Of a stretch of 64,000 nucleotides of DNA, positions 482-61,427 are shown one piece after another. A model generated the notes under the pieces. That model saw only the letters and a program-made list of their open reading frames with translations. It was not told the origin of the DNA and did no database searches. Origin of the DNA: Pseudalkalibacillus berkeleyi (GTDB taxonomy: Bacteria; Bacillota; Bacilli; Bacillales; Fictibacillaceae). The stretch is from contig NZ_JAKIJS010000001.1 in the NCBI RefSeq assembly GCF_021608225.1, positions 2,232,001 through 2,296,000 of the forward strand, written 5' to 3'. The position numbers and the translations under genes are program-made. Position 1 is the stretch's first letter. Every line of letters begins with the position of its first letter.

Positions 482-1828
482 TTAAACCTCTCTCCTCATC
501 GCCTTAAGTACGTCCACTTTCGTTGCTCGACTTGCTGGTCGCAAACCAGAAATAATCGTGACAATCAAACAAATTGAAATGCTGATGAGAGTCAAGCTCA
601 GTGGAATACTCGAGAACATGAAGTCTTCTGGTGGTTGCTCTCCAAATGCTCCACCTAGGATCATCGGTAGGAATAGATTAACGAGATAACTGATTCCATA
701 AGCAACCAAAGTTCCAAAGAGCGCTCCTAACAAGCCAATATAACTGCTTTCAATCAAAAAGATCCGCTTGATTGTATTTGGATTTGCTCCGATTGCTTTC
801 ATAATTCCGATGTCTGGCGCACGTTCTGTAACCGCCATAGTCATCGTATTATAAATTCCGATTGAAGCGATGATAATGGCGATTGTTCCGATGAAGATCA
901 AGCCACTTTTTGCAATCAAGAAAATCAAATTCATTTGTTCCATTTCGCTTACAACTGAGTATGAATAATACCCTTTGTCTTTTATCGAATCTGAAATATG
1001 CTTCACTGATTCAGCATGATTGGCATAGATCTTCACTTCATCATACGTTTCTTCAGTTGAAGCTTCTGATTCGGGGTTTTCGCTAGGTGGTGCGTTCGGA
1101 TCTCCTATTTCACCATTTTTCATTCCCGTAAAAGCTTCAACCTTACTTAATACCGCTTGTGAAATATACACTTCTCGATTATGCATCCATTCACGTGTTG
1201 GTTTCTTACCAATTCCGACGATTTTAAGATCGAACTGTTTGGTCGTTTCTTTTTTCTCTTGTACCTTCTTTACATCCATACGAATGGTTTTATTCAGGAC
1301 TTCCCCATTATAACTAAGCTCTTCCTTAACGACACCATCTTCCCCATAAGGTGGTTCCCCTTCACCGTTCCATGCAGCTAAACCTTTTGCGAAATCATAT
1401 CCTACGACAACTTCATCCTCCGATTGAGGTAAACGTCCTTCAGATAGTTCAAACCCTGCTTTAACTTCGGAGGGATAGTGTACAACGATTGAACCACCAG
1501 TATGGCGATACTGATCAAGAAGAAAAACTGCGTCTTGTCGTAAGTAGTTTCTACGCGTAACTGCATCCACATTTTCAAGTGACTCGAAGTATTCAATGTC
1601 CTCGATCGTCAACTGGTTCTTTTCTTCTTTTCCGTGAACTTGAATTTCCGTCATCAATTGTCCGGATGTCATTTCCTCTACAAATGATTCTTGAATTCCA
1701 AATGCAACGGATGCCAATACGATGAGGAATGCACACCCCATGGCAGTAGCTAAAACGGTCATAAAGATCCGACTTTTGTTCTTCTTCATGTTTGTACGGA
1801 CGAATTTAAACTGATCACGAAATTTCAT
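482..1828 (-). CDS. ABC transporter permease, MacB/FtsX type
   Basis: Permease of a MacB/LolC-type ABC exporter (448 aa). One N-terminal membrane segment (about residues 20-45) is followed by a large extracytoplasmic MacB_PCD-like domain and three C-terminal segments (about 305-330, 355-390, 405-430), the classic FtsX layout. The external domain contains an acidic, Pro/Ser-rich linker near residues 240-262. The start overlaps the end of the ATPase gene by 4 bp, so the two are translationally coupled. Such exporters move lipoproteins, peptides or antibiotics; the substrate cannot be read from the sequence. Confidence 0.88.
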   Translation of the reverse strand: MKFRDQFKFVRTNMKKNKSRIFMTVLATAMGCAFLIVLASVAFGIQESFVEEMTSGQLMTEIQVHGKEEKNQLTIEDIEYFESLENVDAVTRRNYLRQDAVFLLDQYRHTGGSIVVHYPSEVKAGFELSEGRLPQSEDEVVVGYDFAKGLAAWNGEGEPPYGEDGVVKEELSYNGEVLNKTIRMDVKKVQEKKETTKQFDLKIVGIGKKPTREWMHNREVYISQAVLSKVEAFTGMKNGEIGDPNAPPSENPESEASTEETYDEVKIYANHAESVKHISDSIKDKGYYSYSVVSEMEQMNLIFLIAKSGLIFIGTIAIIIASIGIYNTMTMAVTERAPDIGIMKAIGANPNTIKRIFLIESSYIGLLGALFGTLVAYGISYLVNLFLPMILGGAFGEQPPEDFMFSSIPLSLTLISISICLIVTIISGLRPASRATKVDVLKAMRREV

Positions 1829-8357: not shown

Positions 8358-9425
8358 CTAGAGACTATGTTTAATTTGAGATGCTTCTAATAAAATCTCT
8401 GCTAAAATTTGTCCTGCTGATTGACCTTCTTTTATTAAGCGATTTCCTTGTCCTGCCCAAAGAGACATATATTCTGATTTCCCTTGTTGCTTAGCTGCTT
8501 TTCTAATTTCTTTAGTTACCAAGTTCTGTATTGGATAACGCAATGGACTAATAAAGTTAGAGTTAGAGTCAAATAAATCAATGAATGCGTTTCGAATTGC
8601 ACGCGCAGGTCTTCCAGAAAATGCAGTTGTAATCACTGTACTCTCTTCATTTGATTCCAGTAAGGCTTTTTTGTATAGAGGATTTGCTCCACTTTCTATA
8701 CTATTTAGAAATCGTGTGCCAAGTTGAATGCCTCCTGCACCTAATGCAAGAGCAGCAATTAAACCTCTTCCATCCATAATCCCTCCCGATGCAATGACTG
8801 GGATCTTAACACGGTCGACAATCTGAGGTACCAGTGCAAATGTACCGATTGATGCAGCACCTTGCTCAGCTTTAAATGTGCCTCGGTGTCCTCCCGCTTC
8901 ACCCCCTTGCGCAATAATTGCATCGACTCCAGCTAATTCTGCCTGAATGGCTTCTTCAACTGTGGTCACCATCGTCATGACTTTCAATTTTTTTTGTTGA
9001 GCTGCGATAACTTGATTGTGTGTTGGAACGCCGAACGTTGTAGATATAACTGGCACCTCTTCATCAAGGAGAACGTTAAATTGTTCCTCATAATAATCTT
9101 CCACAACTGGCTCATCAGCGGTCATATGAATACCTAACTCATTGTAAACGTTTGAAAGCGCCTTTTTGACTTTCACCGTACGGCTATCCCCGTAAGCCTT
9201 CTCAACCCGAAATAGGTTCACTGCAAAAGGATGATCGGTTAAGTCACGAACTTCTCTAATCACTTTCCGAGTCTCATTAGGTGTCAAATATCCAGCTCCA
9301 ATTGTGCCAAGACCACCTGCATTAGATACCGCAGCAACTAGTTGGGGTGTTGTAATTCCTCCAGCCATACCAGCTTGTATAATGGGATGTTTAATCTGTA
9401 AAAGTTCACATACTTGTGTGTACAT
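8358..9425 (-). CDS. Nitronate monooxygenase (2-nitropropane dioxygenase family)
   Basis: FMN-dependent TIM-barrel enzyme, 355 aa. Family motifs are HPIIQAGMAGG at the N-terminus, IIAQGGEAGGHRG near 170-182 (catalytic His in GGHRG) and VIASGGIMDGRG near 212-223, then the phosphate-binding GAGGIQLGTRFL. These enzymes oxidise alkyl nitronates such as propionate 3-nitronate; Firmicute members without FabK function are common. A GGGAG RBS precedes the ATG. Two copies of a putative small RNA lie directly upstream on the same strand. Confidence 0.85.
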   Translation of the reverse strand: MYTQVCELLQIKHPIIQAGMAGGITTPQLVAAVSNAGGLGTIGAGYLTPNETRKVIREVRDLTDHPFAVNLFRVEKAYGDSRTVKVKKALSNVYNELGIHMTADEPVVEDYYEEQFNVLLDEEVPVISTTFGVPTHNQVIAAQQKKLKVMTMVTTVEEAIQAELAGVDAIIAQGGEAGGHRGTFKAEQGAASIGTFALVPQIVDRVKIPVIASGGIMDGRGLIAALALGAGGIQLGTRFLNSIESGANPLYKKALLESNEESTVITTAFSGRPARAIRNAFIDLFDSNSNFISPLRYPIQNLVTKEIRKAAKQQGKSEYMSLWAGQGNRLIKEGQSAGQILAEILLEASQIKHSL

Positions 9426-9493: not shown

Positions 9494-9570
9494 ACAAAAA
9501 AAGGTGCAAGCCGGTATGGCTTGCACTTCAATAAAGGTATGGGCGGTGTCAGAGTTTTAAGGGGATTGTC
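9494..9570 (-). ncRNA. Putative C-rich small RNA, copy 1
   Basis: On the minus strand an extended -10 (TGCTATACT, 9585-9577) predicts a transcript start near 9570. The roughly 75-nt product contains unpaired C-rich stretches (CAATCCCCTT and CACCGCCCATACC) and ends in a GTGCAAGCC/GGCTTGCAC hairpin with T7. This layout resembles the C-rich Firmicute sRNAs RsaE/RoxS and FsrA, but I see no full match to either. A near-identical copy lies 261 bp upstream. One base pair of the terminator stem covaries between copies (T-A to C-G). Confidence 0.55.
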
Positions 9571-9614
9571 CTCTTCAGTATAGCACGCTAAAAAGCGTTT
9601 GGTTATTGGGAAAA
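9504..9614. repeat. 111-bp direct repeat, copy 1
   Basis: About 111 bp repeated at 9765-9875, with roughly 90% identity. Differences cluster in the terminator loop and a few scattered transitions. The unit covers a full promoter-to-terminator cassette, so it looks like a tandem gene duplication rather than a transposon. Confidence 0.9.
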
Positions 9615-9754
9615 CTCCTGAAATTTAGTCCGACAGAATCGGCTTTTTCTTTGCACACTTTCCCAATATACATCGCGGCTTGAACCCCCATAAAACAGAT
9701 ATTAAACCACACAGGTTTAGGTGATTTGCCCTAGAGTATTACTTTGAACACCTT

Positions 9755-9831
9755 ACAAAAAAATACGCAAGCCGGGGGAGGCTTGCGCTTCAAAAAGGTA
9801 TGGGCGGTGTCAGAGTCTTAAGGGGATTGTC
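9755..9831 (-). ncRNA. Putative C-rich small RNA, copy 2
   Basis: Same architecture as copy 1: extended -10 TGCTATACT at 9846-9838, predicted start near 9831, the same C-rich stretches, and a terminator with stem CGCAAGCC/GGCTTGCG and T7. Both promoters are conserved even though the sequence between the copies is not, which argues that each unit is transcribed on its own. Confidence 0.55.
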
Positions 9832-9875
9832 TTCTTCAGTATAGCATGCTAAAAAGCGTTTGGTTATTGGGAAAA
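9765..9875. repeat. 111-bp direct repeat, copy 2
   Basis: Second copy of the cassette, ending in TTATTGGGAAAA like copy 1. The 150 bp between the copies is unrelated except for a TTTCCCAA motif. Confidence 0.9.
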
Positions 9876-9980
9876 TCATCGATTTTGTCATGTATTATTA
9901 TGTCGAAATTACAAAACATTTTCCCAACCTTATCCGACCTTTTCCCATTTCCTGCAACAAATCCTTACTTCCAATTGACA

Positions 9981-9989: not shown

Positions 9990-10029
9990 ACAAATATAAT
10001 TACATTTCTCACGAGAATTGAGTGATTCT

Positions 10030-10824
10030 ATGGATCAACGCATTACAACTCAAAGAGTAATCTACTCATATACAGATGGTGAGTTAAAGAAAAAAGAAGA
10101 TACGATTGTTACTGAGTTCCCGTTAACGATCGTACTGAATGGAAATGAATTTGCGACCATGGTTTGTACACCTACTTATCTTAAGGAAATGGTCATGGGA
10201 TTCTTAGCCTCAGAAGGCGTGATCAGGTTCGTCAAAAGGGATATCCACTCTATAACGATAGATGAAAATAAAGGATTCGCGTACGTAGAGACAACAACTA
10301 AGATCACCCCTACCATTCAAGAACATACAAAACGATTCATAGGTTCATGTTGTGGGAAAAGCAGACAATCTTTCTATTTTCAAAATGATGTCAAAACGGC
10401 TAAATCATCCATGACGGTGCAAACCGTTTCCTTTTCTCAATGCATAGATTTGATGAAGCAACTGCAGTCCTCAAGTGGCACCTTCCAGGCAACTGGAGGC
10501 GTTCATAACGCGGCTATTTGCACCCCTAATAAAATGATCATCTCAAGAACAGATATTGGTCGACATAATGCATTAGATAAACTTTATGGACACTGCTTAA
10601 TAAATGAGATTAAAGTTCAGGATAAGGTGCTTGTTTTCAGCGGGAGAATTTCTTCTGAAATTTTACTCAAAGCATCAAAAATTGGTGTAGGGATACTCCT
10701 ATCTAAATCTGCACCGACTGAGCTCGCCTTGCAAGCAGCTGAGGAATTAAATATAACCACAGCAGGATTCATACGTGGTAACAGAGTTAATGTCTATACT
10801 CACCCTGAACGTATAACGTTGTAA
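10030..10824 (+). CDS. fdhD: Formate dehydrogenase accessory sulfurtransferase FdhD
   Basis: FdhD (about 264 aa) transfers sulfur from cysteine desulfurase to the bis-MGD cofactor of formate dehydrogenase. Visible family features: EFPLTIVLNGNEFATMVCTP, the cysteine motif IGSCCGKSRQ near residue 105, GGVHNAAIC near 160, and DIGRHNALDKLYG near 180. An in-frame TTG 12 bases upstream (10018) is an alternative start; neither has a strong Shine-Dalgarno. It is followed 33 bp later by moaA, so the pair serves molybdenum cofactor supply. No formate dehydrogenase gene is in the window. Confidence 0.9.
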   Translation: MDQRITTQRVIYSYTDGELKKKEDTIVTEFPLTIVLNGNEFATMVCTPTYLKEMVMGFLASEGVIRFVKRDIHSITIDENKGFAYVETTTKITPTIQEHTKRFIGSCCGKSRQSFYFQNDVKTAKSSMTVQTVSFSQCIDLMKQLQSSSGTFQATGGVHNAAICTPNKMIISRTDIGRHNALDKLYGHCLINEIKVQDKVLVFSGRISSEILLKASKIGVGILLSKSAPTELALQAAEELNITTAGFIRGNRVNVYTHPERITL

Positions 10825-48062: not shown

Positions 48063-48077
48063 ATGATTTAATTGTTT

Positions 48078-48199
48078 TCTAGGGTTCCGCAAGACTTTAA
48101 TTGGACTGGTCCGAGAGAAAACTCACAGCATGAACCGCTGTGCCACGGAAGGATAAAAGCCTGGGAGATACTGTACTACAGTTATCTTTCAGGCTTTTT
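48078..48199 (+). promoter_or_regulatory. Guanidine-I riboswitch (ykkC/yxkD leader)
   Basis: The conserved ykkC aptamer elements are present in order: CTAGGGTTCCG, GACTGGTCCGAGAG, CCACGGAAGGATAAAAGCC and GGGAGA. The end of the aptamer overlaps an intrinsic terminator (AAAGCCTG...CAGGCTTT then T5, 48156-48199). Guanidine binding stabilises the aptamer and prevents the terminator, so the SMR pair is turned on. This matches the established ON switch of this class. Confidence 0.95.
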
Positions 48200-60864: not shown

Positions 60865-61427
60865 AAAAAAACCTCCCCAAAATTTTTACAATATGCGCGC
60901 GCTATAATATAGGAATTAGCTCAATCTATGTCAGATTCCTTCATTTTGATGTTGGGAAAAAGCTGTTATAAAAGCACTTAGAAAAGGGCTCTTAAAAGAT
61001 GATATTTCCCATTATTGCTAATGTAATAGTTTTATCATTAAGATAAGCTCCACTTTTTTACTAGGCATTAACTTAGTAATAGTAAATAGTACATACATAA
61101 GAATTCATTTCTATTAATAGAATCCATATCTAGGTATGAAGGAGGCTAATAATTGATTGTTTTGCATTGTTGACAATCCGAAGGTCTCATATGTTACTTT
61201 TTTACCTTCTGAAAATAGTGAATATATACCTATTAAATTAGAAAAGTTTAGTTATTAAATGAAATCTCATGTTCATTCATGGTATTTTAGGCTTATTATC
61301 CACCCATATGAAAGCGCTTTCTGTTTTCGCGCTTATCAAAAAAATACACCCCGAATTTTACATTCGACATGATTCGTGTAAAATAATAAATCGTTAGAAA
61401 AATGTATTTTTTGAAAGGAGAGATTTG
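60865..61427. other. Intergenic region with cre-like site, no convincing gene
   Basis: 560 bp between the protease and BCCT genes. It holds the protease promoter region, a GAAGGAGG at 61138-61145 followed by only a 33-codon TTG frame (61157-61258, probably spurious), and the cre-like site at 61309. No conserved RNA was recognised. Confidence 0.5.
61309..61322 (+). promoter_or_regulatory. cre site (CcpA binding), upstream of BCCT gene
   Basis: TGAAAGCGCTTTCT matches the Bacillus cre consensus TGWAANCGNTNWCA at all but the last base and is nearly palindromic. It lies about 106 bp before the transporter start, which fits carbon catabolite control of the gene. Confidence 0.65.

Follow-up and report, generated by a model that had tools for sequence, protein, structure and literature searches.

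What do two nearly identical units, lying one behind the other at positions 9494–9876 of a 64,000-nucleotide stretch of the Pseudalkalibacillus berkeleyi genome (the window; genome G000, contig C1), encode, and what might switch them on? The original prediction described a tandem duplicated unit, about 90% identical between copies set 261 bp apart, and both alignment and shuffled controls bore this out. The copies, here called a and b, share 90% identity over 121 aligned bases; the repeat includes 82 nt at 96% identity and a 21-nt terminator block at 86%, with the same 261-bp spacing for both. A pattern for the 22-nt core, allowing up to three mismatches, occurred twice in the window, compared to a mean of 0.00 in 100 shuffles. 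On sequence evidence, the segment was confirmed to hold two small RNA (sRNA) genes, both read on the minus strand, each with an extended −10 element, a C-rich unpaired RNA and a terminator, and each predicted to be transcribed. The original prediction had found these genes but left their strand unstated, and it missed a 61-bp regulatory box carried by both copies.

The predicted transcript of copy a spans 9496–9570 (start at 9570, end of the T run at 9496) and that of copy b spans 9757–9831 (start at 9831, end at 9757), as delimited by the −10 element, the terminator and conservation. Either RNA would be ~75 nt long, within the 70–80 nt first proposed, with the start placed by assumption 7 nt after the −10 element, at GACAAU. 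The extended −10, TGCTATACT in both copies, was read from the sequence at 9577–9585 (hexamer 9577–9582) for copy a and at 9838–9846 (hexamer 9838–9843) for copy b and, as TG[CT]TATACT, is kept in 14/14 copies across the genus, so that this part of the original prediction held as well. A sigma-70 consensus scan reported neither sRNA promoter because there is no recognizable −35 element. The terminator hairpins (9504–9526 in copy a and 9765–9788 in copy b) consist of a stem followed by seven T, and owing to the terminator the folding of each 82-nt stretch beats 200/200 shuffles. The C-rich loops anticipated for these RNAs are C-rich and unpaired but are not loops: the 5′ part (GACAAUCCCCUUAAAACUCUGACACCGCCCAUACC) is linear, with a predicted unpaired probability of at least 0.78 over the first 41 nt.

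The distribution of the sRNA was assessed against a set of eight genomes of the genus including the source (G000–G007) and against wider collections. The proposed DNA search for copies elsewhere gave strong matches only in the eight genus genomes among 149 genomes searched, the source genome included. Weak blastn matches at E 0.1 in 15 non-genus genomes were put down, on reading, to coincidence or to resemblance confined to the terminator hairpin, and one of the weak non-genus matches (L020) looks by eye like a coding start. A covariance model (R1) built from 14 copies recovered all 14 in 8/8 genus genomes; 26 other genomes of the family gave two matches only (E ~0.17), and among 299 genomes of the order, searched with stricter filters at E 0.01, only the two genus members matched. 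Four further weak R1 matches (E 0.018 to 0.55) were all in genus genomes. A third match in G000 (E 0.018; L293 ~1353–1439, minus strand; G000:C1:1638352–1638438) contains CTATACCCCCTAACCCC, a hairpin and a T run and is free of the box; no sRNA family matched this region, which is possibly an unrelated C-rich sRNA.

Two copies are present in six of the eight genus genomes and one in G001 and G002, with copies labeled a or b according to position, except that sequence decided for the lone copy of G002. In a synteny survey covering the proteins used as queries, fdhD and the HU gene flank the copies in 8/8 genomes, and the SDR gene also falls within this interval in 7/8 (not found in G002). The divergent fdhD (10018–10824, plus strand; TIGR00129 above its cut-off) stands beside the copies in all eight. 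That the repeat might be part of a larger mobile element, a possibility raised at the outset, was rejected: the place is the same in 8/8 genomes and no match came up in collections of phages and plasmids (distant mode, E 0.01). The base following CCCCTTAA is A in 8/8 a copies and is not A in 6/6 b copies (the b copy of G004 has a 5-nt insertion there), which therefore points to one old duplication that predates the spread of the genus, with b lost in two genomes. From the predicted +1, the first 37 of 37 nt are identical in 8/8 a copies; mean pairwise identity is 43% in the 45-nt box spacer, 55% in the 20 nt before the extended −10 and 44% at fdhD third positions. Terminator cells are paired at 95.4% versus 88.0% in shuffles, and 12 cells versus 4.4 are changed on both sides (0/500 shuffles as high in either case). 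Two of five covariation measures were not above shuffles, namely pairs with both sides changed (228/500) and further pair types (370/500). The T-A to C-G terminator change originally taken to support an RNA was borne out among relatives: of 13 distinct sequences, ten have UA and three CG at this pair.

Upstream of every one of the 14 sRNA copies is an inverted repeat of 61 bp, TTGGGAAA-N45-TTTCCCAA, its end separated from TATACT by exactly 23 nt. On the minus strand of the window, the box of copy a lies at 9606–9666 (half-sites 9606–9613 and 9659–9666; G000:C1:2241606–2241666) and that of copy b at 9867–9927 (half-sites 9867–9874 and 9920–9927; G000:C1:2241867–2241927). The same 23-nt distance from box to −10 was found at 22/22 non-sRNA loci measured with 20–25 nt allowed; these comprise eight loci of a 267-aa gene, eight of a 71-aa gene and six of one subtilase. 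Across the eight genus genomes there are 61 boxes with 40–50 nt between halves, six to nine per genome, and none with the reversed control. At a fixed 61 bp with up to two mismatches, G000 has 11 sites, seven of them exact (reversed control 0), G001 has 13 versus five in the reversed control and G004 has ten versus two. Boxes with 40–50 nt between halves were present in 34/34 family genomes searched.

The seven exact boxes of G000 precede the two sRNAs, two subtilases, a 71-aa protein, a Rap protein with a RapH_N domain, and the pair formed by a regulator and its divergent 267-aa neighbor. Further box-bearing genes in G004 and G001 encode, by Pfam and among the matches listed, a subtilase, an M12-type metalloprotease, a C92 peptidase and a second Rap. 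An 862-aa protein near a G001 box had no Pfam match. At 60952–61012 (G000:C1:2292952–2293012), the window itself has a further instance of the 61-bp box that departs from it at one position.

The regulator in this set was examined as the candidate that binds the box. Its start lies 19–20 bp after a box in 8/8 genus genomes and in G010, a member of another genus; in G000 it is on contig C3, and the sRNA copies are on C1. It combines an N-terminal HTH (HTH_3, PF01381, E 7.6e-13) with C-terminal TPRs (TPR_12, PF13424, E 2.4e-17) and is 418 aa long in seven of the eight genus genomes and 421 aa in G004, inside the published RRNPP size range of 250–500 aa (PMC10075063). Among solved structures it is closest to NprR (4gpk, E 3.3e-24, an alignment covering the TPR part), ahead of the first Rap-type chain, 6t3h (E 7.8e-20), and this ranking places it nearer NprR than Rap. 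No NCBIfam model scored above its cut-off.

A gene for a repeat propeptide lies behind the regulator in G000 (L104 5266–5754, plus strand), with counterparts in L143, L115, L144, L126 and L287 that likewise hold many in-frame repeats. The repeats read AIDQTPEP in G000, AHDDTPDL in G001, AYDENPPA in G002, AIDDRPEP in G004, AYDDNPP in G005 and ASDNSPGIK in G010, and they are likely to represent a set of species-specific pheromones. Similar frames are present in G006 and G007, and at the G003 regulator no such frame appeared among the matches listed by a non-exhaustive filter. Signal peptides of the propeptides were judged by eye, and three propeptides exceed 100 aa. In G010, a second HTH-TPR regulator (L290 2164–3468, plus strand) sits behind a 59-bp variant box, TTGGGAAAC...GTTTCCCAA (L290 2036–2094), as if regulator and box had diverged together. 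From its position, we infer that the NprR-like protein binds the box. The NprR–NprX complex is a tetramer, suggesting two DNA sites bound together (PMC4970707), and a tetramer binding two sites suits the half-site spacing seen here, 53 bp or roughly five turns of the helix.

Taken together, we consider it reasonably probable that the twin RNAs act in trans and belong directly to a peptide quorum-sensing regulon of the RRNPP (NprR-like) type. In the mechanism we propose, a pheromone would be secreted and, at high cell density, re-imported (for G000 a candidate is the repeat peptide AIDQTPEP). It would let the HTH-TPR regulator, probably in tetrameric form, bind both half-sites, TTGGGAAA and TTTCCCAA. 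The half-site nearer the promoter would then substitute for the absent −35, switching on the extended −10 promoter, and the resulting 75-nt RNA would stop at the intrinsic terminator with its unpaired 5′ stretch left free to pair with mRNAs, in the manner of Qrr or AimX. The promoter layout is common to the sRNAs and to genes of the quorum-sensing system, which makes it probable that crowded cells produce the RNAs; the same signaling system appears to control secreted proteases as well. Transcription, regulator binding and activation rather than repression are thus put forward from the shared promoter layout, and base pairing by analogy.

The target prediction called for at the outset, carried out as duplex and complement searches, gave no conserved target above shuffled controls. 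A scan of 151 ortholog trios, covering about a tenth of the genome, reached a best weakest-of-three energy of −19.9 kcal/mol, and 94% of 200 shuffled sRNAs were as good or better. The exact complement TAAGGGGATTG has 43 matches in the eight genomes, 30 of them outside the sRNAs, and TATGGGCGGTG has 24, with 12 outside the sRNAs; none of these outside matches recurs in orthologous leaders, and two recur inside coding regions. One candidate, the gene beside the regulator that we take to be glycosylase-like, has a match in G003, G005 and G007 but was rejected because, across seven of the eight genomes, as few as 8 and as many as 13 of the 13 bases match, and no motif match was present at the G001 locus. 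In a second candidate, a presumably gas-vesicle-like gene, ~60 nt after the start, 13/13 bases are complementary to the sRNA 5′ end in G005, G006 and G007 and 12/13 in G002 (loci L276, L281, L284 and L244); its conservation is not an independent test because the copies were located through the match itself. The pattern AGGGGATT-N2-10-ATG gave no convincing recurring target among the matches listed (30 loci, 34 stretches read).

When 613 gene starts, mostly of the genus, were ranked by duplex energy, a gene of G003 that we assume to be of the RND type came first (−32.2 kcal/mol), and its G000 ortholog reached −28.7 kcal/mol with a corrected start. These genes (L103 5322–8003 and L134 from 4568, both plus strand) lie beside a box-controlled subtilase, with the strongest predicted pairing around the start codon, and shuffled sRNAs were as good in 1.4% and 0.6% of 500 cases. 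The RND-type gene was picked from hundreds, so it is not significant after selection and was set aside as a target. The leader of the regulator itself was unexceptional, with best values of 5.7 to 18.8% in the six genus genomes with the right start and 36.6% of shuffles as good.

These results bear on whether the RNAs act by pairing at all. They could be real and quorum-controlled and yet titrate a protein or sponge another RNA instead of pairing with mRNA leaders; an invariant stretch of 37 nt for which no conserved leader target was found, together with a trio scan no better than shuffles, would suit such a role. We nevertheless regard it as unlikely, given that the comparative scan reached only about a tenth of the genome and that a long unpaired C-rich 5′ stretch, as found here, is typical of sRNAs that pair. 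It is distinctly improbable that the units instead work in cis, as leaders or attenuators of whichever same-strand gene comes next. Such a role is suggested by copy a, which ends 70 nt before a same-strand FabK/nitronate-monooxygenase-like gene (8358–9425, minus strand; TIGR03151 E 1.3e-73, below its cut-off), and by copy b, which in G005, G006 and G007 precedes an OFA-type transporter. The same-strand downstream neighbor is not constant, however, being the FabK-like, OFA-type or SDR gene or else the second copy, and the first gene encountered after the copy in G002 is HU, which runs on the opposite strand. What lies between or behind the copies also varies: a FabK-like gene in G000 (a place not kept in the other seven genomes), an OFA-type transporter in G001, G005, G006 and G007, and neither in G002, G003 and G004. 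Moreover, no alternative antiterminator structure was predicted, the 5′ part being unpaired.

Regulation could also be genuine with a factor other than the NprR-like protein bound to the box, which would take the RNAs out of quorum sensing. Binding by the regulator is deduced from position, and boxes with 43–46 nt between halves also occur in other families of the order (68/299 genomes). Against this, the box is fixed before the regulator itself throughout the genus and in G010, the regulon includes Rap and proteases, and the second HTH-TPR regulator of G010 has its own upstream variant box, so we think such a factor improbable. As for membership of a described family, RsaE/RoxS (RF01820) has C-rich unpaired stretches, and in RsaE/RoxS and FsrA C-rich loops are the pairing sites; the present RNAs are likewise short, with C-rich unpaired stretches and an intrinsic terminator. 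The lead toward RsaE/RoxS was not supported: the RF01820 model matched 0/8 genus genomes and one of 14 control genomes, the positive control B. subtilis, and up to E 5 the region matched neither RsaE/RoxS nor FsrA, in a library that may or may not include an FsrA model. The four Rfam matches in the region up to E 5 were all below the gathering score, the best being Atu_C9 on the other strand (E 0.016), and the sRNA unit fits no Rfam family. That it belongs to RsaE/RoxS or FsrA is considered very unlikely. Elsewhere in the window, a Guanidine-I riboswitch was detected at 48068–48169 on the plus strand (83.1 bits versus a gathering score of 63).

The preferred reading, in which the twin RNAs are trans-acting members of the NprR-like regulon, has partial parallels in known systems. 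The Qrr sRNAs of Vibrio are redundant sRNA copies under quorum-sensing control. The RNAs described here resemble them in being redundant, with multiple copies under a shared promoter element (two copies in six genomes and one in two; box in 14/14 copies), and differ in having no Rfam sequence family in common with them, another signal and another regulator class. NprR–NprX of the B. cereus group shares an HTH-TPR receptor, to which the present regulator is nearest, an adjacent propeptide gene and exported proteases in the regulon; sRNAs in the regulon and repeat propeptides set the present system apart. In arbitrium phages, an RRNPP regulator activates the non-coding RNA AimX within an aimP–aimR–aimX module (PMC13389391). 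AimX is phage-borne, whereas the present RNAs are chromosomal, duplicated and on another contig than the regulator. In C. difficile, the regulator RgaR governs both the regulatory sRNA SpoZ and a quorum-sensing peptide operon (PMC10602386); SpoZ is similarly an sRNA tied to a quorum-sensing regulator, but RgaR is of the two-component type, not RRNPP. The listed titles and abstract openings of open-licence papers on RRNPP, NprR and PlcR with small RNA, or on Pseudalkalibacillus, mention no such RNA.

On balance, we lean toward the view that these are undescribed, genus-wide twin sRNAs switched by an NprR-type receptor, which would form a Qrr-like post-transcriptional arm of a chromosomal RRNPP regulon and would descend from an old a/b duplication whose products differ at one core position and in their terminators. 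For this group, accounts of peptide quorum sensing mostly deal with proteases and phosphatases. If this view is correct, the quorum signal would also act through RNA, by way of two strongly conserved sRNAs whose promoters are laid out like those of the protease genes. The 61-bp box with its 23-nt spacing offers a means to read such regulons from sequence.
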